A DNA stretch of 64,000 nt, from contig NZ_MPCX01000003.1 of assembly GCF_001874145.1 (NCBI RefSeq), positions 186,001-250,000 on the forward strand, given 5' to 3'. The notes under the pieces are model-generated. The model had not been told where the DNA came from. It saw only the letters and a program-made list of their open reading frames with translations, and ran no database searches. Made by a program: the position numbers and the translations under genes. This document shows, one piece after another, positions 104 to 28,967 of the stretch (positions are counted from its first letter, which is position 1; every line of letters begins with the position of its first letter). This DNA comes from Lacinutrix sp. MedPE-SW. Its GTDB lineage: Bacteria > Bacteroidota > Bacteroidia > Flavobacteriales > Flavobacteriaceae.

Positions 104-1432
104 TTATTCATTTTCAGATAATGGAATTGGTAATGTATTATAAATAACATCTCCCGCTCTATCAATTGGAAGTGTATTAGATAATCCAAATCTTCTTAAA
201 TCAAACATTCTATGGTTTTCACACCATAAAGAGTAACGTCTTTGATTTAACAACTCTGTAGTAAGAGATGCATCATCTAAACCTCCAGTATAGTTAGGTA
301 AACCAGCAGCATTTCTTATTACATTTAAAGCTGTTACTGCATCACCTGGACTACTATTAAGCATACTCGCTTCTGCATATAAGAGAATTAATTCTTCATT
401 TCTTAAAATATCTATTGGAGATGTACTTGAAGCATATAAACGTGTTTCATAAGCACCTACTAAATCATCTTGAGAAGCAGTTGGATCTGGTCTAAGTGCA
501 GCTTTATTAGCAACTCTTGTATCTCCTGGTTCTGCATCATTTATCCAACTATCATGAACAATAATTTGATCTCCATTATTTTGATTTTCAACTGTTGTAG
601 ATTGTAGTTTAAACAACCCGTTTAAAGCATCGTTTCCTCCTGTTGCAAATAGGTGTTTTGGACCATTGTTTAAATCTCCCATAAGGTCAAAATAAGAATC
701 GCCTAACGCTGTAATGGCTGCGCCACCATCTCCAGCGTAAACTGCTGCCATAGCTGCTACTGCTCTATTATATTGAGCGAAACTAGAAGCATCATTAAAA
801 CCATTAAATCCTGCGCTTAAATTAAATAAAAATGTTGCTCCAGTTAAATCTGTATTAGCTTCATTTAACATAGTTCTAATTTCTGCTAAAGCTTCATCTT
901 TTTCTAATACAGGACCTAAATTATTTTCGTCTGCGACATCTACTCTAGCTCTGTCATAAGATTTTACCATTTGTATTAACTCATAAGCTATCATAGTTTT
1001 TGCAAAACCAATGTATCCTCTTCTTTCCTCATCTGAAACAGCATTAGAGTTTGTAGCTGCATTAATTAATAAATTTGCATTCTTAATACAACGGTAACTA
1101 CCATTCCATTGTGAAGTACTATAAAAAGAATTATTATCTAAACCAATTCCATTTTTACCTAACAAATCTCCTGTATTTCTTGGGTCTGCATCAAATAAAT
1201 ACAGTTCTCTTGCCATAGTTCCACTTGCTGTAGTTTCAATTGCTATACCGTTTCTAGCTGAAGCTTCTACACCAACAACTAATTCGTTTAATTGACCTAT
1301 GGTAGCGTTAGATTCTACTCCATCTACACTTGGCCCATTAGGATCAACTTGCTCATCAAAAGTACATGATGCAAATAACATCATCACTGCAGCAATACCT
1401 ATATAGGATATTTTATTATATATATTTTTCAT
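104..1432 (-). CDS. SusD/RagB-family outer-membrane lipoprotein
   Basis: Surface lipoprotein that caps a SusC-type TonB-dependent channel and binds the imported glycan or peptide. I chose the start at 1432 (sequence MKNIYNK...) rather than the in-frame ATG nine codons upstream, because it puts a normal lipoprotein signal at the N-terminus with the lipobox cysteine at residue 23 (LFASC) and leaves a short gap after the SusC gene instead of an overlap. The C-terminal part (EELILLYAEA, LNVIRNAAGL, LNQRRYSLWCENHRMFDLRRFG) is the typical RagB/SusD domain. At about 442 residues it is shorter than many SusD proteins (500-550). Second gene of the SusC-SusD operon. No glycosidase or peptidase is adjacent, so the substrate cannot be inferred. 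Confidence 0.93.
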   Translation of the reverse strand: MKNIYNKISYIGIAAVMMLFASCTFDEQVDPNGPSVDGVESNATIGQLNELVVGVEASARNGIAIETTASGTMARELYLFDADPRNTGDLLGKNGIGLDNNSFYSTSQWNGSYRCIKNANLLINAATNSNAVSDEERRGYIGFAKTMIAYELIQMVKSYDRARVDVADENNLGPVLEKDEALAEIRTMLNEANTDLTGATFLFNLSAGFNGFNDASSFAQYNRAVAAMAAVYAGDGGAAITALGDSYFDLMGDLNNGPKHLFATGGNDALNGLFKLQSTTVENQNNGDQIIVHDSWINDAEPGDTRVANKAALRPDPTASQDDLVGAYETRLYASSTSPIDILRNEELILLYAEASMLNSSPGDAVTALNVIRNAAGLPNYTGGLDDASLTTELLNQRRYSLWCENHRMFDLRRFGLSNTLPIDRAGDVIYNTLPIPLSENE

Positions 1433-1445
1433 ATTTATTTTTTTA

Positions 1446-4379
1446 TTAAAAGTTAACATTTAAGTGTAAGTAAAACTGTTTCGCACTTGGAAAAGGTGTT
1501 ACTTCAATACCACTTGATAATCCTGCACCACCATTTACAGAAACTTCTGGATCATAACTACTATAATCTGTTACGGTAAATACATTTCTTCCTGAAACCC
1601 CTAATTTGATTCCTTCAATATTTCCACCTAAAAGCTTCTCTACTGTTTTACTTGGTAATCTATAGTAAAGTGCAACTTCTCTAAGTCTTAAATAACCTGC
1701 ATCTTCAACAAAACGTAATGCATTTGTTGGAGAATCTAAACGGTCTTGACCTTCTGGAGTTTCTAAATCTGGACTTGTTTGACCTAAATCTGTTAAAAAT
1801 CTTGATAAATTTAAGTTTTCACCGCCTTGTTTAAGTTGAAATAAAAATGAGAAATCAAATTGCTTAAATAAAGTTAAGTTGTTACTCCAAGACATTTGAA
1901 AATCTGGCTCTACATTACCAACTTGTTGTAATTCTCCATCAATATTTCCTACTAATTGTGTTACTGGCTGTCCTTCTTCTATATAAAAAGTACCTAATCC
2001 AGTACCAAATCCTGCTCCAGGTTGAGCGAATGCTGGTACATCCAGCCTAGTAATTTCTGAAGTGTTTTTGTAGAACTGTAGTCTTGAATTCCAAGTTGCA
2101 TTTTCTCCTCTAAGTATGTCTCCAGAAAGCGCTAATTCAACACCTGTGTTTTTTAAATCTGCAAGGTTTGTTCTTTCTTGTGTAAACCCAGAAGAACCAG
2201 GAAGTGATCGTGTTAAAATTAAATCTTCAACTTGCTTATTATAGTACGTTGCCTCTAAATTAATACGATTATTTAATACACCTACATCAAAACCAATTTC
2301 AAATTCTTTTGCTGTTTCTGGCTTTATATTAGGATCTCCTTTTAAACCTGCTAATGTTTGACCAACTGGACCACCAATAGTTGTACTTGCATAACTAGTA
2401 AAAGTAGATCCAAACTGTGCAGGGTTTCCTGTTTCACCGTATGCTGTTCTAAACTTTAATTGGTTTATAGCATCTACATTCCAAAAATCCATATTAGCAA
2501 TGTTAAGTGCTAAAGATGCTTTTGGGAAACCAAAAAATTCATTAGGATCTCCATTTCTTGTAGATTTATCTAAACGATACCCTAAAGTAGCAATTATTTG
2601 ATCTTTATAATTACCTTCTACTTGTGCAAACATTCCAAAGTCTTTTTCTTCTGAACGTGTTTGAAAAACATTTTGTACTGCAGAATTATCTACACTGGTT
2701 TGATTTGCCAATAAACCTGCACCAGTTGTTAAAACATTATCTCGGTCTTGGTATAAGTACGTTACACCTGCTTGAGTTGTTAAACCTAAATCTCCATTAG
2801 CTAAAGCATCATTATTCCATACTGCTACTGCTTGAGAGTTAAATTGTGTAAAATCATTATTTCCTACAGCAATAAACCCAGGATTTTGAGGGTCTGGATG
2901 TGACTGGTGAGTTTCTGGCACATAAACATATGTTGAGTTAGATAAGTAATCTACACCACCACTTAAAACAAACTTTAATCTATTTTTTTCGGTATTAAGT
3001 ATGTTTGTTTTTAAAGTCATACCTTGTATAAATCTATTATTTGAATCTTCATTTTTTGCGTTATCTCTAACAAAAATTGAATTACCACTATAATTTGGAT
3101 TATTTGGGTAGTTACCATTTGCATCTGGATATAAATTAACCCAAGGACGCGTAAAAGCTAAAGCATAACCATAGCTTAATCCTCCTTCGTTTTCATTACC
3201 TGTAAAAGATCTACTAGAGTTACTTCTTACATAATTACTTGTTGAAGTAATACTAAAAGTATTTGAGATTTCATGATCAATATTACCACGAATAGAAAAA
3301 CGATCGAATCCTGTATTAGCTATTATACCTTCTTCATCACGATAACCTGCACCAATAAAGAATTTTGTTTTTTCACTACCACCACTACCACTAATACGAG
3401 TGTCTGTAATTAATCCTGTATCGCCATAAATTTCATCTTCATAGTCGTATAAACTACCTCTACTAGCAATAACAGCTTCGTATTTATCTCTTTCATCTGG
3501 TCCAAAAGTATCTTCTACAGATTGTGCAGTCCAAGGACGCATACCTAATGGGTTTGCTATAGTATTAAATCCAGTATCCTGACTAAAATTAATTTTAGTT
3601 TTTCCAAGTTTACCTCGTTTAGTAGTTATAATAATAACTCCGGCATTACCACGTTGACCATAGATTGCTGCTGCAGATGATCCTTTTAAAATCTCCATAT
3701 CTTCTATGTCGTTTGGATCTAAATCTGCTAATCTATTCGCACCATTTTCTTCATTTGCTGCATTTGCACCAGAAGCTAAACGCAATCCTGAAGGAATTTC
3801 AACATTATTGATATAGACTCCATCAACAATAATTAAAGGTTGATTATTACCATTAATAGAAGAGATACCACGCAATCTTACTGCAAAACCTCCACCTGGA
3901 GCTCCAGAAGACGATGTAATATTCACACCTGTTACTTTACCGTAAAGTGCTCCATCTACAGTTGTTTGACTTGTAGTACCAACTAATTCTTCAGAAGAAA
4001 CTGATGATACTGCGTTTGCAAGATTAGAACGCTTAATACTCGTTCCTAAACCTGTAATAACAACCTCATCTAAAGAAGTTGTTGACTCTTGAAGTGTAAT
4101 TGTTACAGATTCTGCTTGATTAAGCGTTTGCTCTACAGAAGTGTAACCTAATGAAGAAACTTCTAAAACTGCTGGAAACTCACTAATATCTAAGCTAAAA
4201 TTTCCATCAAAATCTGTTGTAGTCCCATTGGTAGTTCCTTTTACAATAACGTTTGCACCTACTAAAGGCATGCTGGAAGCACCATCGATTACGGTTCCAG
4301 TAATGTTTTGCCCTAAGACTAAAAAAGGGAAGAACACTAATGAAAACACTAATGCTCTTAAAGACAATGTTTTACTCAT
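1446..4379 (-). CDS. SusC/RagA-family TonB-linked outer-membrane protein
   Basis: TonB-dependent 22-stranded outer-membrane transporter working with the SusD lipoprotein encoded 13 bp downstream. Visible in order: signal peptide (residues 1-23, ending VLGQ), a carboxypeptidase-regulatory-like domain (about 25-105, GTVIDGASSMPLVGANV and DFDGNFSL), a TonB-box-like stretch (LDEVVITG), the plug domain (LYGKVTGVNI, RLRGISSING, IIVDGVYINN, IYGQRGNAGVIIITTKRG) and a long beta-barrel ending in aromatic residues (FYLHLNVNF) as expected for BAM-dependent insertion. At 977 residues the length is typical. Its 5' leader contains no recognisable ECF or HTCS regulator gene, so control may be from elsewhere. 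Substrate unknown. Confidence 0.95.
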   Translation of the reverse strand: MSKTLSLRALVFSLVFFPFLVLGQNITGTVIDGASSMPLVGANVIVKGTTNGTTTDFDGNFSLDISEFPAVLEVSSLGYTSVEQTLNQAESVTITLQESTTSLDEVVITGLGTSIKRSNLANAVSSVSSEELVGTTSQTTVDGALYGKVTGVNITSSSGAPGGGFAVRLRGISSINGNNQPLIIVDGVYINNVEIPSGLRLASGANAANEENGANRLADLDPNDIEDMEILKGSSAAAIYGQRGNAGVIIITTKRGKLGKTKINFSQDTGFNTIANPLGMRPWTAQSVEDTFGPDERDKYEAVIASRGSLYDYEDEIYGDTGLITDTRISGSGGSEKTKFFIGAGYRDEEGIIANTGFDRFSIRGNIDHEISNTFSITSTSNYVRSNSSRSFTGNENEGGLSYGYALAFTRPWVNLYPDANGNYPNNPNYSGNSIFVRDNAKNEDSNNRFIQGMTLKTNILNTEKNRLKFVLSGGVDYLSNSTYVYVPETHQSHPDPQNPGFIAVGNNDFTQFNSQAVAVWNNDALANGDLGLTTQAGVTYLYQDRDNVLTTGAGLLANQTSVDNSAVQNVFQTRSEEKDFGMFAQVEGNYKDQIIATLGYRLDKSTRNGDPNEFFGFPKASLALNIANMDFWNVDAINQLKFRTAYGETGNPAQFGSTFTSYASTTIGGPVGQTLAGLKGDPNIKPETAKEFEIGFDVGVLNNRINLEATYYNKQVEDLILTRSLPGSSGFTQERTNLADLKNTGVELALSGDILRGENATWNSRLQFYKNTSEITRLDVPAFAQPGAGFGTGLGTFYIEEGQPVTQLVGNIDGELQQVGNVEPDFQMSWSNNLTLFKQFDFSFLFQLKQGGENLNLSRFLTDLGQTSPDLETPEGQDRLDSPTNALRFVEDAGYLRLREVALYYRLPSKTVEKLLGGNIEGIKLGVSGRNVFTVTDYSSYDPEVSVNGGAGLSSGIEVTPFPSAKQFYLHLNVNF

Positions 4380-13543: not shown

Positions 13544-14873
13544 AGCCTTTTATTTTTTTATACTGAGTGATTGCCTGACTATCACTCAACAAAGAAATAT
13601 AATGACATACGCTTAATAAACGCTCATACAATCTCTCTTGATTTATTTTTATGGTTTTTGGCAAACCTTTTAAAATTAGCGCATCGTAATTAGAAGCGAT
13701 ATTATTGTAACAGTTATTTACTGCCTTTGTATAAGTTTCTAACAAAACACTTAAAACACCATAACCTGCAATTTCTTTATCTACAACTTCTGTAGATTGA
13801 TAAATTTTATTAATACTTAGCTTAATAATATCCTCTATTTGGGCTTCATATTTACTCTTATCTAATAAAGCTTCATTAAAATTACCTGCCAAAATAGCTT
13901 CTTCATTTTTCATAAACATCTCAACCGCTTCATCTATAAGCGCTCCAATTGCCAATGCCCTTAAATAACTTACACGATCTTCTTTGTTAGAAAGTGCATG
14001 GTATTTTTCAGTTTTAATTTTATCTCTAACTAAGTTTATTAAATACTCTAAAGCAAAAGCTTCTGGTATTAAACCTAAATTAATACCATCTTCAAAATCA
14101 ATAATTGTATAACAAATATCATCTGCAGCCTCTACTAAATACGCTAAAGGATGTCGAGCATAACTTATGTCTTTTTTACTTCTTTTTTCTAGACCTAATT
14201 CTTGAGCAACATCTATAAAAGCTTCTTTTTCAGTTTGAAAAAATCCATACTTTTTATCTGCTATATGATTTGTTGGCTTTTTAGGTAATGATTCTTTAGG
14301 GTATTTTGTAAATGCTCCTAATGTTGCGTAACTTAATCTTAAACCTCCAACTCTACCTTTTCTGCTTTGAGTTACAATTTTAAACCCGTTAGCATTACCT
14401 TCAAAATCACATAAATCTTGATATTCTTTATCACTTAAACCACTTTTATAAATCTTTCCTTTTCCAGATTTAAAAAACTCTCCAATTGCTTTTTCTCCAG
14501 AGTGTCCAAATGGAGGATTACCAATATCGTGTGCTAATGCTGCCGCTGCAACTATAGCTCCAAAATCATGAGCTTGATAACCATGAATTTCATGTAAATG
14601 GGGATGTTTCTCTAAAATTCTTTGTCCCACGCGTCTTCCTAAAGAACGCCCAACAACACTAACTTCTAAACTATGTGTTAATCTGGTGTGTACAAAATCG
14701 GTTTTAGACAAAGGAATAACTTGAGTTTTATCTTGTAGACTTCTAAATTCTGATGAAAAAATTATACGGTCGTAATCTACCTCAAACCCTAAACGTGTTT
14801 CATCTTGTTCTTTTCGTAACCTCTTATTTGTATCACCAAAACGTTTTAAAGATAATAGTTGTTCCCAGTTCAT
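13533..14873 (-). CDS. dgt: Deoxyguanosinetriphosphate triphosphohydrolase (HD superfamily)
   Basis: Hydrolyses dGTP (and possibly other dNTPs) to the nucleoside and tripolyphosphate. The HD-domain metal ligands are visible: H in THSLEVSVVGRSLG (about 64), the HD pair in ALAHDIGNPPFGH (about 108-120) and the later D in EAADDICYTIID. At 446 residues it fits the Bacteroidota dGTPase-like group. The 3' ends of this gene and dxs overlap by 11 bp with no terminator between them. A dNTPase with broader specificity is the main alternative. Confidence 0.9.
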   Translation of the reverse strand: MNWEQLLSLKRFGDTNKRLRKEQDETRLGFEVDYDRIIFSSEFRSLQDKTQVIPLSKTDFVHTRLTHSLEVSVVGRSLGRRVGQRILEKHPHLHEIHGYQAHDFGAIVAAAALAHDIGNPPFGHSGEKAIGEFFKSGKGKIYKSGLSDKEYQDLCDFEGNANGFKIVTQSRKGRVGGLRLSYATLGAFTKYPKESLPKKPTNHIADKKYGFFQTEKEAFIDVAQELGLEKRSKKDISYARHPLAYLVEAADDICYTIIDFEDGINLGLIPEAFALEYLINLVRDKIKTEKYHALSNKEDRVSYLRALAIGALIDEAVEMFMKNEEAILAGNFNEALLDKSKYEAQIEDIIKLSINKIYQSTEVVDKEIAGYGVLSVLLETYTKAVNNCYNNIASNYDALILKGLPKTIKINQERLYERLLSVCHYISLLSDSQAITQYKKIKGFSF

Positions 14874-14955
14874 TTCTAAGTATTAATATGAGTGCAAGAT
14901 ATAACTTTCAATGTTAATTTAACGTTTCGAATTAACAAAAACATTTTCTCTTTGG

Positions 14956-15024
14956 TAACATTTTACTAACCTTTTAGTGAAAAAGGTTTAACCTTAAGTT
15001 AACCCAAACTTTACAACATGTAAC
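14956..15024 (+). promoter_or_regulatory. PHO-box-like array of 11-bp direct repeats
   Basis: TAAC or a close variant recurs at 14956, 14967, (14978 TGAA), 14989, 15000 and (15011 TTAC), each exactly 11 bp apart, with TAAC again at 15021. The best pair is TTTAACC-TTAA-GTTAACC. A 7-bp direct repeat on an 11-bp pitch is the architecture bound by PhoB/PhoP-type response regulators, and the TTAAC core resembles the B. subtilis PhoP and cyanobacterial boxes. A near-consensus -7 box (TTTCTTTG, 15025-15032) follows, so the array sits where an activator would bind. Confidence 0.6.
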
Positions 15025-15076
15025 TTTCTTTGCACCGAGATTTTAAACTAAAACAACACATATAAAAAACAATACA

Positions 15077-16357
15077 ATGAAAAAATTATTATTATCTGCA
15101 TTAGCAGTAAGCGCTTTAGCATTCACAGGATGTATTCAAGATGACGACACTCCTATTATTGTAGAAGAAACTACTATAATAAATAACAACAACTCAGAAG
15201 ATGGTTCTAGCGATGAGTGTATAGTAAAATCTGGAGGAATTGCTATTGATGAAACTTGGACTGCAGATAAGTGCTATATATTAGATAGAAAAGTTGTTGT
15301 ACAAGAAGGTGTAACTTTAACTATTATGCCGGGAACTATAATTAAAGGTAGAGCAGGTACAGGATCTTTATCTTCTGCATTAATTGTTGCTAGAGGAGGA
15401 AGATTAGTTGCAGAAGGTACTGCTACAGAGCCAATTATCTTTACTTCTGAAGCAGATAACATTGAAATAGGGTCTACTTCTGGTACTAACTTAAACGAAA
15501 ATAACATTGGTCTTTGGGGTGGTGTAATTGTATTAGGTAGAGCTACTGGTTCTTTTCCTGGAAACGTAACTGAAGTTCAAATAGAAGGTATTCCTGCAAG
15601 TGATTCTTTTGGATTATACGGTCCTGGTGACGATCCTGCTGTTGATAATGATGATTCTGGAATTTTAAGATATGTTTCTATTCGTCACGGTGGTTCTTTA
15701 TTAGGAGAAGGAAACGAAATTAACGGTTTAACTCTTGGATCTGTTGGTAACGGTACAGTTATAGACAATGTTGAAGTTATAGGAAACAAGGATGACGGAA
15801 TCGAGTTTTTTGGTGGTACTGTTGACGCTTCTAACTTATTAGTTTGGGCTCAAGGAGATGACGCTATCGATGTTGACCAAGCTTACTCTGGAACAATTAG
15901 TAATGCTGTAGTTATATTAGGAGATAACTCTGACCATGCTTTAGAAATTGATGGACCAGAAGGATCTATTAATGGAACATGTACTATAACAGACCTTACT
16001 TTAATTGGTAATGGTGCAATTGGATCTGAATATGCAGATTATAGAAGTAACACACAATCTATTACTAACAACGTTTACGCTTACGGATTTGGAGATTCTT
16101 CAGACGTAGAATTAGATAATGATGGAGTTGCTACTAACTACAACAATGGTTTAGTAACATTTAACAACTGGCAAATTGCTTTACCATCAGGTGTAACTGC
16201 TGTAGAAGATATTTTTGTAAACAATGCATCTACTGTAACTGTTACAGGGTTTGGATCTGAAGCTACAGCTGTAACAGAAGGTTCTCAAACTACTGGAGCA
16301 AATACAGCAAACCTTAACTGGACGTATGCAAATACTGCTGGTGGATTAGGATTCTAA
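15077..16357 (+). CDS. Beta-helix-like lipoprotein paired with a TonB-dependent receptor
   Basis: A 426-residue exported lipoprotein: signal with lipobox cysteine at residue 19 (AFTGC) followed by an acidic, Asn-rich linker (about 20-48). The rest is repetitive and Gly/Asn/Asp-rich (IMPGTIIKGRAG, LIVARGGRLVAEGTA, IIFTSEADN, GWGGVIVLG-like steps), consistent with a right-handed parallel beta-helix. No catalytic motif is recognisable. It precedes a TonB-dependent receptor by 84 bp and lies behind a PHO-box-like repeat array, so I infer a substrate-capturing or scavenging partner induced by phosphate shortage; the biochemical function is unknown. Confidence 0.8.
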   Translation: MKKLLLSALAVSALAFTGCIQDDDTPIIVEETTIINNNNSEDGSSDECIVKSGGIAIDETWTADKCYILDRKVVVQEGVTLTIMPGTIIKGRAGTGSLSSALIVARGGRLVAEGTATEPIIFTSEADNIEIGSTSGTNLNENNIGLWGGVIVLGRATGSFPGNVTEVQIEGIPASDSFGLYGPGDDPAVDNDDSGILRYVSIRHGGSLLGEGNEINGLTLGSVGNGTVIDNVEVIGNKDDGIEFFGGTVDASNLLVWAQGDDAIDVDQAYSGTISNAVVILGDNSDHALEIDGPEGSINGTCTITDLTLIGNGAIGSEYADYRSNTQSITNNVYAYGFGDSSDVELDNDGVATNYNNGLVTFNNWQIALPSGVTAVEDIFVNNASTVTVTGFGSEATAVTEGSQTTGANTANLNWTYANTAGGLGF

Positions 16358-16382
16358 TAAACAAACCTTTAAAAACAGAAAA

Positions 16383-16423
16383 TGCTGCTCATAACCTAAT
16401 AATGGGTGTGAGCAGTATTTTTT
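16383..16423 (+). terminator. Hairpin with T-run between lipoprotein and receptor genes
   Basis: Stem TGCTGCTCATAACC / GGGTGTGAGCAGTA (with GU and mismatched pairs) followed by eight Ts, 30 bp after the lipoprotein stop. It probably acts as a partial terminator, so the lipoprotein would be made in excess of the receptor. Confidence 0.65.
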
Positions 16424-16441
16424 TTAATTATAAACTTCAAA

Positions 16442-19297
16442 ATGAAAAAAATAACAAAAATACTTTCATTAATCCTACTTTTTACTACTTCTATTTCCTT
16501 TGCTCAAACTGGAAAAGTTGCAGGAAAAGTAATTGATGGTGAGTTTAATGATGTGTTATCTTTTGCAAATATTCTAGTAAAAGGTACTACTACTGGTACC
16601 ACTTCAGATTTTGATGGTAATTATCAATTAGAATTAGATGCAGGAACATACACACTTGTATTCTCATTTGTTGGTTATCAAACAACCGAAATTAGTGATG
16701 TAGTAATTACTGCAGATGGTGTTACAGATTTAACTGTAACATTAAACGCTTCAGAAAACGCATTAGACGAAGTTGTTATTACTACAACTGCGAAACGTAA
16801 TACAGAAAGCGCGTTATTAAATATTCAAAAAAAATCTGTTGTAATGCTAGATGGGCTTTCTGCTCAAAGCATTAAAAAAACAGGAGCAGGAGACATTGCT
16901 GCCGCTGTAAAAAGTGTACCAGGAGTATCGGTTCAAGGCGGTAAATACGTATATGTACGTGGTCTTGGAGATCGTTACACAAAATCTATTTTAAATGGTG
17001 TTGACATTCCTGGTTTAGATCCAGATAGAAACACAATACCAATGGATATTTTTCCTACAAATATTATTGATAACGTAATTGTATTAAAATCTGCTTCTGC
17101 AGAATATCCAGCCGATTTTACTGGTGGTATTGTTAATATTGTGACTAAAGATTTCCCTACAAAAGCAGAGTATTCTCTATCTGTTGGTGCTTCTTATAAT
17201 CCAGATATGCACTTTAAAGACAACTACTTATCTTACGAAGGAAGTAATACCGATTTTTTAGGCTATGATAATGGACTTAGAAATAGAAAAATAAATAGAT
17301 ACCAACCAATTCCTGGTACATTTGAAAACAAAAAACTATTAACTAGTTTAACAAAGCGCTTTAACTCACAATTAGGTGCAGACACAGAAACTAGTAACCC
17401 TAATTACAATTTTGGATTTACTTTAGGAAATCAATACGATGTTGGAGAAACTAACCGTATAGGTTATCAAGCCTCTTTTTCATATAAAAACAACACTAAG
17501 TTTTATGAAGACAGAGAAGATGGTGCTTATATAAGAAACCGTTTTGATACTTCTGTAAACGAATTAGGCATAAATAGAACCGTAAAAGGATCTTCAGGTA
17601 TTAATGAAGTTTTAATGAATACATTATTAGGGCTTACATATAAAACTGAAAATTCAAAGTATAAATTAACAGGATTACACATTCAAAATGGAGAATCTAC
17701 TGCTGGTAAATACGATTTAGTAATTAGTGAAGATAATGCTGGTGGTGGTTTATTAAATGCTACTGGAGATGAGCTTACTTATACTCAAAGGTCTATTACA
17801 AACTTATCATTAGCTGGTGAACACACATTAGATGCTAACTCAGGATGGAAAATGGATTGGGTATTCTCTCCGTCTTTTTCATCTGTTCAAGATAAAGATC
17901 ATAGAGCTACAGCATTAAGAATTGTTGATGTTGGAGATGATATACAATACCAAATAGATCCAAGTTCTGTTGGAAACCCAACAAGAATATGGAGAAACCT
18001 ATCTGAAGAAAGTTGGGTAGCAAATGCTAAACTTGAAAAAAAATACGAACTGTTTAATAGACCTGCACAATTAAAATTTGGTGGTGGTTACACATTTAAA
18101 TATCGTGATTTTAATTCTGATCAATATTTATTTGAAACAACTTCACCTAATGTTTTAAATGGTGATGTAAATACTATTTTAGCTGAAGAAAACATTTGGA
18201 CTCCTGCAACAGGTACTGGAACTTACTTAGATTCTAACAATATTTTTCAACCAGAAAACTCTTATGAAGGTGAATACAATGTAGCATCTATGTTTATTTC
18301 TAATGAATTTAATGCAACTGAAGCTTTTAAAATTATTTTAGGTTTAAGAACAGAGCAATTTTCATTATTCTATACTGGTGTAGTTGATGAAGAAAATGTA
18401 ACTGGAATAAAAACTATAGATGAGTTTGATTTCTTTCCTTCTGGAAACTTAATTTATGCGCTTACAGAGCAATCAAACTTAAGGGCTTCTTACTCTCGTA
18501 CAACCGCAAGACCTTCTTTTAAAGAAGCGTCTACAGCACAAATTTTTGACCCTATTACAAATAGATTTTTTATTGGAGGTTTAAACAATAACACTTTCGA
18601 TTCTGTAAGACCAACATACATTAACAACTTTGATGTGAGATATGAGTGGTTTAGAGAAAAAGGACAAATGATTGCTTTTAGTGGATTTTACAAAAGCTTT
18701 ACAGATCCTATAGAATTAACGTTTTTCCCTCAAGCACCTAAACAACTTACAGTTGCTAACTTAGGAGATGCTACAGTAATTGGTGGTGAAGTAGAGTTTA
18801 GACAAAATTTAGGATTTATTTCTAATGGATTCGAAAAATTTAAATTCAATGCAAATGTTTCTATCATTAGTTCTAAGTTACAAATGACAGATCAAGAGTT
18901 TAACCGTAGAGTGGCAAATGCAAGAGACGGAGAAACTATTGATGATACTAGAGATTTACAAGGTCAATCTCCATACCTAATTAATGCCGGTTTAGATTAT
19001 AGTGATAATGACAAAGGATTTAGAGCTGGTTTATTTTATAATGTTCAAGGAAGCACATTAGAAGTTGTTGGTACAGGAGATATTCCAGATGTATATACAC
19101 AGCCTTTTAACAGCTTAAACTTTACTTTAAACAAGACTTTTGGTAAAGACAACAAGTCTGCTATAGATTTAAAAGTAAATAACATTTTAGGAGATAAGAG
19201 AGAAAGTTTTTATGAATCTTTTGGTGCAGAAGATCAAGTATTCTCATCTAGAAACCCAGGAACAGAAATATCTTTAGGGTATTCGTATAAGTTTTAG
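16442..19297 (+). CDS. TonB-dependent outer-membrane receptor
   Basis: Energy-coupled outer-membrane transporter, 951 residues. Signal peptide (1-21, SFAQ), carboxypeptidase-regulatory-like domain (about 24-105, DFDGNYQLEL), TonB-box-like DEVVIT (about 112), plug domain (about 130-250, PGVSVQGGKYVYVRGLGDRYT, NGVDIPGLDP, GGIVNIVTKDFP) and a beta-barrel ending GYSYKF. It lacks the SusC-specific features and has no SusD partner; instead it pairs with the beta-helix lipoprotein upstream. Given the PHO-box-like operator and the PiT transporter next door, I infer uptake of a phosphorus-containing ligand, but the sequence does not show the substrate. Confidence 0.93.
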   Translation: MKKITKILSLILLFTTSISFAQTGKVAGKVIDGEFNDVLSFANILVKGTTTGTTSDFDGNYQLELDAGTYTLVFSFVGYQTTEISDVVITADGVTDLTVTLNASENALDEVVITTTAKRNTESALLNIQKKSVVMLDGLSAQSIKKTGAGDIAAAVKSVPGVSVQGGKYVYVRGLGDRYTKSILNGVDIPGLDPDRNTIPMDIFPTNIIDNVIVLKSASAEYPADFTGGIVNIVTKDFPTKAEYSLSVGASYNPDMHFKDNYLSYEGSNTDFLGYDNGLRNRKINRYQPIPGTFENKKLLTSLTKRFNSQLGADTETSNPNYNFGFTLGNQYDVGETNRIGYQASFSYKNNTKFYEDREDGAYIRNRFDTSVNELGINRTVKGSSGINEVLMNTLLGLTYKTENSKYKLTGLHIQNGESTAGKYDLVISEDNAGGGLLNATGDELTYTQRSITNLSLAGEHTLDANSGWKMDWVFSPSFSSVQDKDHRATALRIVDVGDDIQYQIDPSSVGNPTRIWRNLSEESWVANAKLEKKYELFNRPAQLKFGGGYTFKYRDFNSDQYLFETTSPNVLNGDVNTILAEENIWTPATGTGTYLDSNNIFQPENSYEGEYNVASMFISNEFNATEAFKIILGLRTEQFSLFYTGVVDEENVTGIKTIDEFDFFPSGNLIYALTEQSNLRASYSRTTARPSFKEASTAQIFDPITNRFFIGGLNNNTFDSVRPTYINNFDVRYEWFREKGQMIAFSGFYKSFTDPIELTFFPQAPKQLTVANLGDATVIGGEVEFRQNLGFISNGFEKFKFNANVSIISSKLQMTDQEFNRRVANARDGETIDDTRDLQGQSPYLINAGLDYSDNDKGFRAGLFYNVQGSTLEVVGTGDIPDVYTQPFNSLNFTLNKTFGKDNKSAIDLKVNNILGDKRESFYESFGAEDQVFSSRNPGTEISLGYSYKF

Positions 19298-19315
19298 TAA
19301 ATAAAACTTAATTAA

Positions 19316-19353
19316 TAAAAAAAGCGCTTAGAGATCTCTAAGCGCTTTTTTTA
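19316..19353. terminator. Bidirectional terminator
   Basis: Perfect inverted repeat AAAGCGCTTAGA-GATC-TCTAAGCGCTTT flanked by an A-run and a T-run, between the convergent receptor gene and the MORN-like gene. Confidence 0.9.
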
Positions 19354-19373
19354 TTTTTTATAATAAGAGATTG

Positions 19374-19727
19374 TTAGTTATTATCTGCAACTCTATCTTT
19401 AGTTTGCCACTCACTAACATTAGCAATAGCATTATTTGTGTAATCAACCTCTGTTAAAGTTTCTTTATTCCAAAAAAACCATTTTCCAACTTTAACTCCG
19501 TTATTATAAGTTCCAGAAGCTACTTTCTTGCCTTGTATATCAAAACTTGTCCAAGTACCTTGTAACTTATTATTCTTGTTAAAGAAACCTTTTTGAGCTA
19601 CTTCTCCATTATCATGGTAAAAAGTTGCTTCGGTTTGATCACCGTTTTTCTCAAATTTAGGTTTAACCTCTTGTGCGTATGTAACTGTAAATGCTAAAAG
19701 CATTAAAATTGTTAAAATATTTTTCAT
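19374..19727 (-). CDS. Small exported protein with MORN-like (YwqK-type) repeats
   Basis: A 117-residue protein with a signal peptide (1-18, VTYAQ) and three short repeats of the MORN-variant type: ATFYHDNGEVAQKGFF, GTWTSFDIQGKKVASGTY and GKWFFWNKE. Proteins of this type are common in Flavobacteriaceae, usually periplasmic or secreted, and their role is not known; the name toxin-antitoxin YwqK-like that such repeats sometimes attract is not supported here. It sits in the probable phosphate-responsive block and has its own promoter motif upstream. Confidence 0.8.
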   Translation of the reverse strand: MKNILTILMLLAFTVTYAQEVKPKFEKNGDQTEATFYHDNGEVAQKGFFNKNNKLQGTWTSFDIQGKKVASGTYNNGVKVGKWFFWNKETLTEVDYTNNAIANVSEWQTKDRVADNN

Positions 19728-19760
19728 CTTGTTTTGGGTATTTACTTAATAATATATTAA

Positions 19761-19768
19761 CAAAGATA
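19761..19768 (-). promoter_or_regulatory. -7 box for the MORN-like gene
   Basis: Minus strand TATCTTTG matches TANNTTTG, about 34 bp before the ATG. Upstream on the same strand, TTTAATG, TTTAATG, GTAAATG and TTAATTG recur every 11 bp (starting at 19820, 19809, 19798 and 19787), a weaker copy of the PHO-box-like pattern. Confidence 0.45.
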
Positions 19769-19948
19769 GCTTTTATTTTACAATTAATACACATTTACGT
19801 AACATTAAATTTACATTAAAGCTTTATTTAGTTGATTATCAGTTGTTTGTGTTTTAAAATTTAACATAATCAATTCTAGTTTTTCATCAAAAACCAATGA
19901 GACTAAAGCATTAGGATGCGTTTTTTTTTATAAAAAATGAAAAGAACA

Positions 19949-19992
19949 TAACATTAAATTAACATCACGTTCAATTAAATATATGAAATTTG
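19949..19992 (+). promoter_or_regulatory. PHO-box-like repeats and -7 box of the PiT gene
   Basis: TAACAT repeats at 19949 and 19960, 11 bp apart, with a degenerate third unit (TCAATT) at 19971, then a near-consensus -7 box GAAATTTG at 19985-19992. The distance from the last good TAAC to the -7 box (25 bp) is identical to that in the array before the lipoprotein gene (15000 to 15025). This matching register argues for the same activator at both promoters. Confidence 0.55.
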
Positions 19993-20016
19993 TTTTTCTT
20001 TAACTAAACACTTTCA

Positions 20017-22314
20017 ATGGAAAACTTATACTTGTTTATGATTATTGCTTTGGCCCTTTTAGCCATTGCAGATTTAGTCGTTGGCGTTAGTAATGACGCT
20101 GTAAACTTCTTAAATTCAGCTATTGGCTCTAAGGCAGTTTCATTTAAAACAATAATGATTGTTGCAAGTGTTGGTGTAGCTGTAGGAGCTATTTTTTCTA
20201 GTGGATTAATGGAAGTTGCTAGAAAAGGTATTTTTAATCCAGATCAATTTGTATTTAGTGAAATCATGGTCATTTTCATGGCCGTAATGATTACAGATAT
20301 CTTACTCTTAGATTTCTTTAACTCGGTTGGCATGCCAACTTCTACAACAGTTTCAATTGTTTTTGAATTATTAGGAGCTGCTGTTGCTGTTGCTTTATTA
20401 AAAGTATGGGAAGCTAACGAAAACACTGCAGACTTAATAAACTATATTAATACATCTAAAGCTACAGAAATTATTATAGGAATACTAATATCTGTCGTCA
20501 TTGCTTTTTCAATAGGAGCTATAATACAATGGATTACCAGAGTGTTATTATCATATAACTTTCAAGAAAAATCGGCTTGGGTTGGTGCGCTTTTTGGAGG
20601 TGTTGCACTGTCGTCTTTAACCTATTTTATATTTATAAAAGGTATAAAAGGAACTCCTTTTGCAGACGACACTTTTAGCTTTACTCAAGGTTTAACGATT
20701 AAAGATTATTTAGAAAGTCACGTTTTAAACATTGTTGCAATTAGCTTAGTTATATGTACAGGTATTTCATTTTTATTAATGACTGTTTTAAAACAAAACA
20801 TATATAAAATAATTATACTAGTTGGTACTTTTGCTCTAGCACTTGCGTTTGCTGGTAACGATTTAGTAAACTTTATAGGTGTACCAATTACTGCTTTAAA
20901 ATCGTATGAAGTTTGGCTAGCTTCTGGTGTACCTGCCAATGAATTTGGCATGTCTTTTTTAGAAGGCAAAGTCTCTACACCATCATACCTTTTATTTATC
21001 GCAGGAATGATAATGGTTGCAACATTATGGTTCTCAAGTAAAGCAAAAGATGTCGTAAAAACATCTATAGATTTATCAAGCCAAAGCAGCACTAAAGAAC
21101 GTTTTAAGCCTAACTTTTTATCAAGATCATTTGTTAGATTTGCTGTATTAGCATCTCAAGCGACAGCCTATGTTTTACCAGAAAACATCCAGGCAAAAAT
21201 TGAAAAGCAATTTAAACAACCAGAACTTTTACCTTCTGAAAAAGAAGAAGCTCCTGCATTTGACTTAGTTAGAGCAGCTGTTAATTTAATGGTTGCAGCA
21301 GTGCTAATATCTATAGCTACTTCAATGAAATTACCATTATCTACAACCTATGTCACATTTATGGTTGCAATGGGAACCTCTTTAGCAGATCGTGCTTGGG
21401 GAGCAGAAAGTGCTGTATATAGAGTTGCTGGTGTTATAAATGTTATTGGCGGCTGGTTTTTTACTGCATTAGTGGCATTTACTGCCGCAGCAATTATTGC
21501 ATTTTTATTAAGCTGGAATGTAAAAGTAATGACACCAATTTTATTACTATTAGCCATTTTATTATTAGTAAGAAATTATATAGCACATAATAAAAAAGCT
21601 AAAGTTTTAAAAGCCGAAGACACATTAACAAAAGCCGAAAGCAGCTCGGTACAAGGTGTAATACACGAAAGCGCATCAAATATTGCTAATGTTGTAAAAA
21701 GAGGAAATAGAATTTATTCTAACGCTATAAACGGTTTAGCAAAACAAGATTTATCATCTTTAAAAAAGAATAAAAAACAAGTATCCAAACTCTCTAATGA
21801 GGTAGATGATTTAAGAGATAATATTTTCTATTTTATTAAAAACTTAGATGAAGCTAGTGTAAGTGCAAGTAATTTTTACATTAATATTTTAGGTTATTTA
21901 CAAGATATGGCACAATCTTTAGAATACATTTCTAATACCAGCCATAAGCATATTAATAATAACCATAAAAAACTAAAATTTAGCCAAATTAAAGAGCTAA
22001 AAGAAGTTGATGAGTCGTTAGAAAGATTATTTATAGACATTAAACAAGCATTCGATTCTCATTCTTTCGAGCAAATTGGAAATATTTTAAATAGAAAAAT
22101 TGAAGTCTTTAATTTTGTTAAAGATAAAATAGACAAGCAAGTAACCAGAACACGTAGTGAAGAGTCAAGCCCAAAAAACACGACATTATATTTTGGTTTA
22201 CTTTTAGAAACTAAAGATTTATTAAATGCAACAATGAATCTTTTAGAAGAATACCATAAAGCACATGACGCTTCTGTAACACCTGCAAGAATTAATACTA
22301 CAGAAGAAGAATAA
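20017..22314 (+). CDS. pitA: PiT-family inorganic phosphate transporter with PhoU-like C-terminal domain
   Basis: Low-affinity phosphate permease of the inner membrane. The two PiT signature repeats are visible: GVSNDAVNFLNSAIGSKAVS (about 23-42) and FAGNDLVNFIGVPITAL (about 285-302), with about ten hydrophobic segments over residues 1-525. A hydrophilic, helical extension (about 540-765) looks like a PhoU/DUF47-type domain (SSSVQGVIHESASNIANVV, IFYFIKNLDEASVSASNFY). Family knowledge: DUF47/PhoU proteins normally act as separate partners of PiT, so here the regulator appears fused. At 765 residues it is much longer than plain PiT (about 500). Confidence 0.9.
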   Translation: MENLYLFMIIALALLAIADLVVGVSNDAVNFLNSAIGSKAVSFKTIMIVASVGVAVGAIFSSGLMEVARKGIFNPDQFVFSEIMVIFMAVMITDILLLDFFNSVGMPTSTTVSIVFELLGAAVAVALLKVWEANENTADLINYINTSKATEIIIGILISVVIAFSIGAIIQWITRVLLSYNFQEKSAWVGALFGGVALSSLTYFIFIKGIKGTPFADDTFSFTQGLTIKDYLESHVLNIVAISLVICTGISFLLMTVLKQNIYKIIILVGTFALALAFAGNDLVNFIGVPITALKSYEVWLASGVPANEFGMSFLEGKVSTPSYLLFIAGMIMVATLWFSSKAKDVVKTSIDLSSQSSTKERFKPNFLSRSFVRFAVLASQATAYVLPENIQAKIEKQFKQPELLPSEKEEAPAFDLVRAAVNLMVAAVLISIATSMKLPLSTTYVTFMVAMGTSLADRAWGAESAVYRVAGVINVIGGWFFTALVAFTAAAIIAFLLSWNVKVMTPILLLLAILLLVRNYIAHNKKAKVLKAEDTLTKAESSSVQGVIHESASNIANVVKRGNRIYSNAINGLAKQDLSSLKKNKKQVSKLSNEVDDLRDNIFYFIKNLDEASVSASNFYINILGYLQDMAQSLEYISNTSHKHINNNHKKLKFSQIKELKEVDESLERLFIDIKQAFDSHSFEQIGNILNRKIEVFNFVKDKIDKQVTRTRSEESSPKNTTLYFGLLLETKDLLNATMNLLEEYHKAHDASVTPARINTTEEE

Positions 22315-22327
22315 CTATAAAAAACTT

Positions 22328-22362
22328 CAAAAAAAAGCCTCGCATTGTCGAGGCTTTTTTTA
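22328..22362 (+). terminator. Terminator after the PiT gene
   Basis: Stem AAAAGCCTCG / CGAGGCTTTT with a 6-nt loop and T-run, 14 bp after the stop. Confidence 0.85.
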
Positions 22363-22459
22363 TACTAAAAGTTAAAATAAACCTAAAATTAACGTTTTAA
22401 AAGTCTGAATAAAAAATGTACACGTACATAGCTATAGATTATAAACTAAAATTTTAAAT

Positions 22460-23311
22460 ATGAAAAAAATTTCAATCCTATTTGTTTCGGCAATATTGTT
22501 ATCTAGTTGTGTTTCTAAAAAGAAATACGTTATGCTAGAACAAGAAAAAGGTGAAGTTGTAAGTGAACTAACCAAAACTAAAGTAGAAAAAGAAGAACTT
22601 GAAGCAAAATTTCAAGCCATTCAAGAGCGTGTAGATAACTACAACGCTAAAATAAATTCATTATCTCAAGATATTGATGGTCTACAAAAAGAAAGCGATT
22701 CTAAATTCACTGTTTCAACCAACGGAACAATGACTTCTAAGCTTACAGAGCGTCAAATGAGAGAAACATTATCTAAAGTTGACCCAAATAAAGTAAGCCA
22801 AGCTAAAACACTTAAAGACTCTATGAATTTAGCTATAGAGTACAATTTAAACAGAGTTATAGATACTAGCACTTTAAATGAAGATGAAGATATTGCAGTT
22901 AACATTAACGAAACTGTAGTAATGATTTCTATAAGTGATAAAATGTTATTTAATACAGGAAGTTATAGAGTAAGCAATAAAGCTAATGATATTTTACAAA
23001 AATTAGCAGATGTTATAAACTCTGAACCAAGTATTGATGTAATGGTAGAAGGTCACACAGATTCTAGAACAATTAGTACACCAACCTTAAAAGACAACTG
23101 GGATTTAAGTGTATTAAGAGCAACTTCTGTAGTAAGAAAATTACAAAATGAATACAATGTCTCTCCAGAAAAATTAATAGCATCAGGGCGAAGTAGCTAC
23201 CAACCACTTACTGCTAACGATACTAAAGAAGGCCGATCTAAAAATAGACGTACACGTATAATTTTACTCCCTAATATTGATAAGTTTTTTGCACTTATGT
23301 CATCAAACTAA
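22460..23311 (+). CDS. OmpA-family peptidoglycan-associated lipoprotein
   Basis: Outer-membrane lipoprotein anchoring the envelope to peptidoglycan. The lipobox cysteine is at residue 17 (LLSSC); a coiled coil with a heptad pattern covers about 22-75; a linker follows; the OmpA C-terminal domain occupies about 160-270 (LFNTGSYRVS, VMVEGHTDSR, RATSVVRKL, GRSSYQP, NRRTRIIL), including the Asp and Arg used for diaminopimelate binding. 283 residues. It resembles flavobacterial OmpA-like lipoproteins of Pal/YiaD type. Flanked by terminators on both sides, so it is monocistronic. Confidence 0.92.
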   Translation: MKKISILFVSAILLSSCVSKKKYVMLEQEKGEVVSELTKTKVEKEELEAKFQAIQERVDNYNAKINSLSQDIDGLQKESDSKFTVSTNGTMTSKLTERQMRETLSKVDPNKVSQAKTLKDSMNLAIEYNLNRVIDTSTLNEDEDIAVNINETVVMISISDKMLFNTGSYRVSNKANDILQKLADVINSEPSIDVMVEGHTDSRTISTPTLKDNWDLSVLRATSVVRKLQNEYNVSPEKLIASGRSSYQPLTANDTKEGRSKNRRTRIILLPNIDKFFALMSSN

Positions 23312-23338
23312 TTAATATTATAGACTATATATATTCCT

Positions 23339-23371
23339 TAAAAGCATCTCGAAAGAGGTGCTTTTTTTATT
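23339..23371 (+). terminator. Terminator after the OmpA-like gene
   Basis: Stem AAAAGCATCTC / GAGGTGCTTTT, GAAA tetraloop, followed by a T-run. Confidence 0.85.
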
Positions 23372-23403
23372 TTTAGTAATTTGTAAAAAATTAAATATAA
23401 TAC

Positions 23404-24123
23404 ATGAAAAATATTTTAAAATTGAGCATAGTACTGTTTACTACAATAAGCTATGCGCAAACCATAAGTGGAGAACAATTACTTAATAACGCTATAAAAT
23501 ATCACGACCCAAATAACAATTGGCAATCATTTAATGGCTCGTTAGATGTCATAATGAAAATGCCTAAGTCTAAGCCACGAATTAGTGAAATAACTATTAA
23601 TTTACCAAAAGAGTACTTTAAAGTAATCGCTAAAAGAGATACTATAATCTCAACATATATTATGGAAAAAGGCAACTGCATCATCTCTAAAAATGATTCA
23701 ATTCGTATTGCAAATTTAAAAGAAAAGCCCAAACGTACACATTGCGAAATGACTGCTCTATATAAAGATTATTACACATATTTATATGGCTTGCCAATGA
23801 AGCTAAAAGATGAAGGCACAAACTTAGCAGAAACAGTTGAGAAAAAAACCTTTAAAGGTAAAACGTATTTGGTTTTAAAAGTTACTTACGATGAAGCTGT
23901 TGGTAGTGACGTTTGGTATTTTTATTTTAACCCAAAAACCTATGCAATGGAAATATATCAGTTTTTTAAAACCGATGAAAATGGCAAGATGAAAAAAGAT
24001 AGTGGCGAATATATTTTACTTACCGAAGAGGTTGAGATTAATGATATAAAATTTCCTAAAAACCGTGCTTGGTATTACAATAAAAATGATGGCTATTTAG
24101 CCACAGATTATTTATCAAACTAA
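23404..24123 (+). CDS. Exported DUF6503-like protein
   Basis: A 239-residue protein with a signal peptide (1-18, ISYAQ). The body shows LLNNAIKYHDPNNNWQSF near the start, a long beta-rich stretch, TYEDEAVG-like KVTYDEAVGSDVWYFYFNP and YQFFKTDENGK, and a C-terminal NRAWYYNKNDGYLATD. This fits the Bacteroidota DUF6503 group, whose fold resembles LolA/outer-membrane lipoprotein-sorting proteins; the assignment is from memory and not certain. Probably periplasmic. It has its own terminator and no obvious operon partner. Confidence 0.7.
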   Translation: MKNILKLSIVLFTTISYAQTISGEQLLNNAIKYHDPNNNWQSFNGSLDVIMKMPKSKPRISEITINLPKEYFKVIAKRDTIISTYIMEKGNCIISKNDSIRIANLKEKPKRTHCEMTALYKDYYTYLYGLPMKLKDEGTNLAETVEKKTFKGKTYLVLKVTYDEAVGSDVWYFYFNPKTYAMEIYQFFKTDENGKMKKDSGEYILLTEEVEINDIKFPKNRAWYYNKNDGYLATDYLSN

Positions 24124-28877: not shown

Positions 28878-28937
28878 CGGTTTAAACTTTCAAAGTAAAA
28901 CGGATGGTTTTAATTAAAAAATAACCTAAATTTAACC

Positions 28938-28967
28938 TTGAATAAACTATTTATAAAAGTACTTTTG
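28938..28967 (+). promoter_or_regulatory. Consensus Bacteroidota promoter of marC
   Basis: TTG at 28938-28940, exactly 19 bp spacer, then TACTTTTG at 28960-28967: a full match to the TTG-N19-TANNTTTG housekeeping consensus, 23 bp before the marC ATG. Confidence 0.75.

Follow-up and report, generated by a model that had tools for sequence, protein, structure and literature searches.

A 64,000-nt stretch of the Lacinutrix sp. MedPE-SW genome (contig NZ_MPCX01000003.1, positions 186,001 to 250,000; hereafter the window) carries a gene cluster in which a lipoprotein gene and a TonB-dependent receptor gene are followed by a small MORN_2-like gene and by the gene of a PiT phosphate transporter (Table 1). 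The promoters of the lipoprotein/receptor operon and of PiT both contain direct repeats of a TAAC half-site that recur with an 11-bp pitch at a fixed distance from the -7 box. We propose that these repeats are, very probably, the PHO-box operator of a PhoB-type response regulator of Flavobacteriaceae that would switch on phosphorus scavenging.

Table 1. Features of the lipoprotein, receptor and PiT cluster and of related loci. Plain coordinates are positions in the window; coordinates with C or L prefixes refer to other contigs of this genome or to compared loci.
Feature	Location	Strand	Remarks
Putative PHO-type operator, lipoprotein/TonB-receptor operon	14956..15014	+	six half-sites, 11-bp pitch
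Weak -7 box TTTCTTTG	15025..15032	+	25 bp after start of fifth half-site (15000)
Lipoprotein, 426 aa	15077..16357	+	mostly beta in structure model
TonB-dependent receptor, 951 aa	16442..19297	+	CarboxypepD_reg-like N-terminal domain and plug
Terminator-like hairpin, 19 pairs	19314..19355	found on both strands	between receptor gene and MORN gene
Small MORN_2-like protein, 117 aa	19374..19727	-	Pfam match below cut-off
TAAC-N7-TTAC array, MORN/PiT intergenic	19800..19814	+	strand opposite MORN; 39 bp from MORN -7 box
Putative PHO-type operator of PiT	19949..19963	+	TAAC 19949 and TAAC 19960, 11-bp pitch
-7 box GAAATTTG	19985..19992	+	25 bp after start of second half-site (19960)
PiT phosphate transporter, 765 aa	20017..22314	+	PHO4 domain
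PiT C-terminal 242 residues	21586..22311	+	predicted all-helical domain, PhoU fold
moxR	L215:1616-2617 = C6:17615-18616		MoxR-type ATPase, Pfam AAA_3
Small-RNA-like element of a relative	L255:4674-4805		homologous positions in L249, L251-L254, L256-L261, L266, L284-L313

A first-pass annotation of this DNA had described 11-bp TAAC ladders at both promoters, with the last good TAAC 25 bp before the -7 box, and a check of positions bore out every coordinate. Upstream of the lipoprotein gene TAAC starts at 14956, 14967, 14989 and 15000, and TTAC at 15011; the third half-site (14978) is a degenerate copy, TGAA, that still keeps the 11-bp register. The two -7 boxes each match five of the six fixed letters of TAnnTTTG, which has been used as the -7 consensus (PMC9723704). 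The six-copy ladder at 14956 has the highest repeat score in the window, and three of the five perfect TAAC-N7-TAAC pairs found on both window strands belong to these two operators. As in a PHO box, each operator holds at least two direct repeats with an 11-nt pitch, placed at a fixed position relative to the core promoter and on the coding strand. The exception in orientation is the array on the MORN side, which belongs to the fourth-best match of model R1 (described below) in this genome. A TAAC array was present on the MORN side in 18 of 21 intergenic regions, and its distance to the MORN -7 box was 39 bp in 15 of the 16 regions having both and 38 bp in one. TAAC pairs with an 11-bp pitch also occur at 28911-28947, before a MarC-like gene (named by look). 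This site was rejected as a PHO operator: its last TAAC (28933) lies 27 bp, not 25, before a good TAnnTTTG at 28960, and the promoter was judged ordinary, with a TTG 19 bp upstream of that box.

Within this genome alone the evidence for an operator is weak and barely above chance. Allowing up to one mismatch, TAAC N7 TAAC N7 TAAC gave genome-wide counts of 26/15 vs. 27/17 for the reversed control, and TAAC N7 TAAC N25 TTTG gave 36/32 vs. 35/42. The exact pattern TAAC-N7-TAAC-N25-TTTG was found four times in 3.04 Mb, when ~1.5 copies are expected from the base composition of the window. The four copies precede the lipoprotein operon, PiT, moxR and the gene of a tetratricopeptide-repeat protein (named by look; contig C7:44183-44226), and this last site may be either a regulon member or a chance occurrence. 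The third-best match of model R1, at C7:64607, was discarded, with no same-strand gene behind it and an overlap with the start of a putative small gene on the opposite strand. The significance of the operator in this genome rests on its conservation across genera and on the spacer control that follow.

Promoter sets were taken from the 30 best lipoprotein and the 30 best PiT loci among 149 genomes of the same family; spacings were counted without alignment, and 200 dinucleotide shuffles served as control. In the PiT promoters (n = 29), two TAAC copies stood 11 bp apart in 27, and TAAC stood 29 bp before TTTG in 26. In the lipoprotein promoters (n = 27), TAAC-TAAC spacings of 44, 33 and 11 bp were found in 21, 20 and 19, respectively, and the 29-bp TAAC-TTTG spacing in 23; no spacing exceeded 5 in the shuffles of either set. 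A fitted 80-bp block with six half-sites, of which the third is just TnA, described 20 of 28 lipoprotein promoters (score at least 50). Left out of the lipoprotein spacing set were L014 (sister species), L017 (start misplaced) and L026 (match truncated), and the sister species was likewise removed from the PiT set (L044) and from the moxR set used below (L220). Alignment A1, the source of model R1, comprises 46 of the 60 loci; it omits L014, L017, L022, L024, L026, L028, L030, L031, L032, L034 and L042 (poor fit, truncated or sister), and L044, L057 and L069 (sister, or strict pattern missing). Because its rows were chosen by pattern or fit, its conserved letters lean towards good sites, and its invariant letters count less.

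The spacer itself was controlled in 20 hand-picked PiT regions from 20 other genera (191,720 bp in total). The cluster strand held 43 copies of TAA[CT]-N7-TAAC-N25-TTTG, the opposite strand none. Twenty other spacers (15-35 bp) gave 0-3 copies on the former and 0-1 on the latter, and half-site gaps of 6, 8, 9 and 10 instead of 7 yielded 0, 0, 1 and 1 copies. All 43 copies directly precede genes, namely PiT in 19 of the 20 regions, 3 lipoproteins, 14 receptors, 5 small CarbopepD_reg-like genes and 2 porins; 27 of them (6 PiT, 14 receptors, the 5 small genes and 2 porins) are independent of the definition of the pattern. Pfam confirmed the names of both porins, of one small gene and of 3 receptors out of 14; the remaining genes are named from their size and the similarity of their ends. 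No strict pattern stands before the receptor of L260, one letter is off before PiT of L256, and two of the 20 regions show no sequence upstream of a receptor.

The first-pass annotation had suggested scanning the genome for the repeat before other phosphate genes. In the Lacinutrix genome a PstS query and sequence searches for PhoU gave no match, so that PstS with a separate PhoU was not found, and Porin_O_P was not found in 30 of the 149 genomes, this one included; the comparison was therefore moved to relatives. In these the operator was found before phosphate genes. Among 43 genomes with a close homologue of the lipoprotein (the Lacinutrix genome and its sister species included), 26 have PiT no more than 12 kb downstream of it in the same orientation, as do 37 of the 49 genomes whose homologue is more distant; these counts cover the 92 genomes for which both genes were listed, out of 133 with a lipoprotein match. 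In one genus (L263), phoR and phoB are found inside the cluster, divergent from the receptor, with the operator in between. In another region (L255) a porin, PstS, three genes read as pstCAB, and PhoU sit between the MORN gene and PiT, the porin, PstS and PhoU being confirmed by Pfam.

PstS was detected in 12 of the 149 genomes, with 9 good matches. In all nine of these loci a gene of about 335-407 residues precedes pstS, and in eight (not in G047) it coincides with a listed Porin_O_P match. Ahead of this gene, which heads pstSCAB, TAAC stands 18 bp before TTTG in eight of the nine loci, the ninth showing just 56 bp, and stands 29 bp and 40 bp before TTTG in three each; ahead of pstS itself the 29-bp spacing is seen in four of nine. 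The shuffle maximum for TAAC-TTTG in these sets was 2. Perfect 11-bp TAAC pairs were few (3 of 9 in both the porin and the pstS sets, when shuffles reached 2 and 3), the remaining half-sites being variants such as AAAC and TAAT. Of ten additional porin promoters, 6 have the 18-bp and 5 the 40-bp distance. Half-sites thus lie 18, 29, 40 bp etc. from TTTG, in a single phase for the regulon. The operator stands before genes of phosphate uptake or scavenging: PiT in the window and, in relatives, PiT, Porin_O_P, pstS and the receptor that faces phoB. PhoX promoters were considered as a further test set and set aside as too few (2 genomes, one with a half-site pair).

Model R1 was run on the genomes of Flavobacterium tyrosinilyticum, F. 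anhuiense and Lacinutrix, with 150 of ~9,000 candidates scored in each. In each Flavobacterium genome the best match (E = 0.09) fell on the promoter of a TonB receptor gene that diverges from phoB. Its neighborhood encodes a lipoprotein, a histidine kinase, a Porin_O_P protein and a glycosyltransferase with a family-28 C-terminal domain, in the order of Fjoh_0546 to Fjoh_0541 of F. johnsoniae, a correspondence by gene order and family. Under low phosphate the F. johnsoniae receptor and lipoprotein (Fjoh_0545/0546) rise with fold changes of 8.02 and 9.91 (PMC8115612, Table 1), and these syntenic genes respond to phosphate, not to N or Fe limitation (PMC8115612).

The PhoB-like protein of Lacinutrix (contig C2) is 73% identical to the receptor-facing PhoB of Flavobacterium and 79% identical to the PhoB of L263. 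Among the four OmpR-type regulators of the genome, only phoB is preceded within 300 bp by perfect TAAC pairs, one per direction; the other three have none, although one of them has two TAAT pairs in reverse. As in a PhoB-PhoR pair, phoB stands ahead of a histidine kinase gene in the same operon, and the best matches of the kinase, below cut-off, are PnpS and PhoR. The two best-scoring models for the regulator are the NCBIfam PhoB models. We infer that this PhoB would be the protein that binds the operator. The gene divergent from phoB encodes a DUF5689 protein sorted by the type IX secretion system (C2:53687-55489, L213), with half-site pairs in between; it occupies the position held by the TonB receptor in Flavobacterium.

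The conserved spacings, the association with phosphate genes and the linkage to phoBR support what the first-pass annotation had proposed, PHO-box operators that define a phosphate regulon. Several observations weigh against this reading. The crude repeat with up to one mismatch is not enriched genome-wide relative to reversed controls, and 8 of 28 lipoprotein promoters fit the six-copy block poorly (score at most 37). The Flavobacterium matches of R1 reach only E = 0.09 under the limited scoring stated above, and both species share identical sequence there and count as one observation. The PhoB-like regulator stays below the NCBIfam cut-offs (216.5 of 270 bits for NF053854 and 213 of 296.2 for TIGR02154). 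PhoX was found in just 2 of 12 Flavobacterium genomes, one of which has an upstream half-site pair. Finally, moxR, which carries the operator in 28 of 29 genera, is not a phosphate gene, and the regulator may reach beyond phosphate.

The rival reading that survives best accepts the PHO box and assigns the lipoprotein and receptor a different task, e.g., in the use of a glycan or cell-wall polymer rather than in phosphorus uptake. The lipoprotein had no Pfam or NCBIfam match. Its structure model (pLDDT 89) is mostly beta and finds weak matches to beta-helix proteins, a pectin methylesterase first (E 0.005), then tailspikes and pectate lyases; it is thus predicted to be beta-helix-like, and the beta-helix label of the first-pass annotation is reasonable. 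This weak resemblance to pectinases, the absence of a phosphatase domain in family searches, and the proposal by Lidbury et al. that such proteins bind plant polymers (PMC8115612) favor a role in glycan use, whereas the linkage to PiT, Porin_O_P and Pst in many genera argues for phosphorus. We regard the glycan role as possible, and as clearly the less probable of the two. The lipoprotein and receptor are 32% and 26% identical to their syntenic Flavobacterium counterparts, and from homologues this distant an outer-membrane role may be inferred. The substrate of the receptor would be phosphorus compounds. The scavenging system put forward earlier is supported, with two corrections: the operator also precedes moxR, and the outer-membrane role is drawn from distant homologues. 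That the system has no SusD was borne out, as no SusD-like gene is found among the genes neighboring the receptor and the locus is not of the SusCD type. A SusC/SusD-like pair (named by look) at 104-4379 is a separate locus.

Tandem half-sites with an 11-bp pitch are general for the OmpR-type family, four members of which are encoded here, and the repeats might be the operator of another such regulator, concerned with the envelope or redox state and having an ArcA-like motif, for which phosphate genes are just some of the targets. The moxR operators fit such a regulator. They show the strict pattern, mostly tighter in sequence (TTTTTAACCAATTnTTAAC) than the phosphate promoters, and moxR is followed by DUF58 and VWA/BatA-like genes. 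In Riemerella, PhoP binds the moxR promoter, moxR drops in a phoP mutant (log2 -2.03), and the PhoP motif is most conserved at the letters TTTAACA (PMC9603813); that motif was likened to that of ArcA, and PhoP affects the Bat operon there (PMC9603813). On the other hand, genes with the operator adjoin phoBR in Flavobacterium, L263 has phoBR within the cluster itself, the porin and pstSCAB units carry the operator, phosphate limitation but not N or Fe limitation brings a response from the syntenic genes of F. johnsoniae (PMC8115612), and no perfect TAAC pair precedes the other three OmpR-type regulators within 300 bp. We therefore consider a different regulator unlikely. The moxR operator and the Riemerella data would agree with one regulator; because moxR carries the strict pattern in 28 of 29 genera, the regulon would be wider than phosphate genes.

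A further reading takes the repeats as chance features of promoters rich in A+T, or as A+T tracts that resemble UP elements and are bound by no specific protein. It could claim the lack of crude enrichment and the four exact copies, where ~1.5 are expected, in this genome. We consider it excluded by the control in other genera, in which the 25-bp spacer gave 43 sites and other spacers 0-3 in the same regions; with the spacings also fixed in 26 of 29 PiT and 23 of 27 lipoprotein promoters, its probability is negligible.

If the repeats are a PhoB operator, as we favor, phosphorylated PhoB would bind head-to-tail on the 11-bp half-sites (TTAAC-like), along one face of the helix. Half-sites at fixed distances of 18, 29, 40, 51 bp etc. 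upstream of TTTG would stand in for the missing -33 element, and RNA polymerase would be recruited under phosphate starvation. Two clear half-sites would drive PiT, and up to six the surface lipoprotein and TonB receptor. The lipoprotein and receptor might then bind or process external phosphorus compounds, which the receptor would pass inward, and PiT would import phosphate.

The C-terminal part of PiT may bear on how such a switch is controlled. Its structure model is helical (pLDDT 86), and 10 of the 11 best Foldseek matches are titled PhoU or PhoU-like, the eleventh being a 'hypothetical protein'; these matches have a probability of 1.00, TM scores of 0.56-0.79 and 8-13% identity, and by sequence the tail has no Pfam PhoU match. 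Because a PhoU fold is predicted here while PstS was not detected, the tail is a candidate link between transport and PhoR.

In relatives, a conserved segment of ~110 nt that ends in a hairpin and a T run lies between the MORN gene and the porin in many genera, a similar MORN gene being found at the same place in most regions examined. Five of the seven terminator pairs changed on both sides among 13 sequences, and four single sequences of this small-RNA-like element fold at z scores of -3.2 to -4.2. Model R2, built from 13 genera, matched at E up to 5e-5 in 61 of the 149 genomes, and in 57 of these 61 PiT follows the match within 12 kb in the same orientation. In only one of the 61 (G109) was Porin_O_P not found, and a 400-aa gene takes the place of the porin there. 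The promoter of the element is in the PHO register, with TAAT-TTTG at 40 bp in 24 of 29 and TTAC-TTTG at 29 bp in 20 of 29. The element has complementarity to the leader of the gene that follows it (the porin in the cases checked), the longest perfect run being 7-17 nt (median 13) in 26 of 30 loci, when shuffled leaders give a mean of 6.2 and a maximum of 12; one of the 30 loci had no anchor and three had no readable leader, and the loci are related and hence not independent counts. No compensatory change in this pairing was seen in these loci. Five cluster regions and positions 14000-24000 of the window gave no Rfam match at gathering score. In the window R2 finds noise: 19835-19934 scores 18.1 bits, less than an unrelated terminator region (19268-19361, 19.1 bits), and the best match in the whole Lacinutrix genome has E 0.013. 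At most, the window retains a relic of the small RNA.

More tentatively, and with a good deal of doubt, these elements can be combined into a phosphate switch that does without Pst and a separate PhoU. PiT, with its PhoU-like tail and its own gene under the PhoB operator, would act as the sensor and restrain PhoR while phosphate flows; in addition, in relatives that keep the porin, a PhoB-driven RNA of ~110 nt upstream of the porin would pair with the porin leader and trim its translation.

The regulon and the half-site letters are partly published already. In E. coli and Streptomyces, PHO-box sites replace the -35 element. The PHO boxes of E. coli PhoB and Streptomyces PhoP are likewise tandem 11-nt direct repeats whose number and organization vary by promoter (PMC4415409), although their half-sites are CTGTCAT or GTTCACC (PMC4415409) rather than TTAAC/TAACAT. 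The operator described here differs from them also in that its phase is locked to the Bacteroidetes -7 box (TTTG at 18, 29 and 40 bp) and in having up to six half-sites. Riemerella anatipestifer PhoP, a regulator reported to rise in phosphate starvation, shares the TTTAACA letters and the moxR target (bound in gel shift, lower in the phoP mutant), but its account, as far as the accessible text goes, describes no 11-bp ladder or fixed distance to the -7 box and emphasizes virulence and redox, not scavenging (PMC9603813). The F. johnsoniae loci PUSIV (Fjoh_0541-0546) and PUSIII also combine a TonB receptor with a pectin-lyase-like lipoprotein (IPR011050), PUSIV has phoBR alongside, and pstS is absent from the F. 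johnsoniae subclade (PMC8115612); the words 'promoter' and 'motif' do not appear in the main text of that study. In contrast to PUSIV, the receptor and lipoprotein of the window, at the low identities given above, adjoin PiT, lie away from phoBR and have the lipoprotein first. A low-phosphate lipoprotein of Caulobacter that figures in the F. johnsoniae study is, we take it, ElpS. This Caulobacter lipoprotein was reported to be related to FI-FIII (PMC8115612); ElpS, likened here by its description, is also a lipoprotein of phosphate starvation, but is proteobacterial and secreted (PMC2996285). In the open-licence literature we found no Bacteroidetes PHO-box ladder beyond the Riemerella motif, no phase-locked operator with multiple half-sites before PiT, the lipoprotein operon, porin-pst and moxR, and no small RNA antisense to a porin leader.

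Through the operator, the F. johnsoniae response to low phosphate, the Riemerella PhoP motif and the cluster of lipoprotein, receptor and PiT genes come together as one system, and the question arises of how phosphate is sensed by PhoR in the absence of PstS and PhoU. With a PHO operator defined for the family, the phosphate regulon of Flavobacteriaceae could be read from sequence, and the geometry of the half-sites can be tested by mutation.

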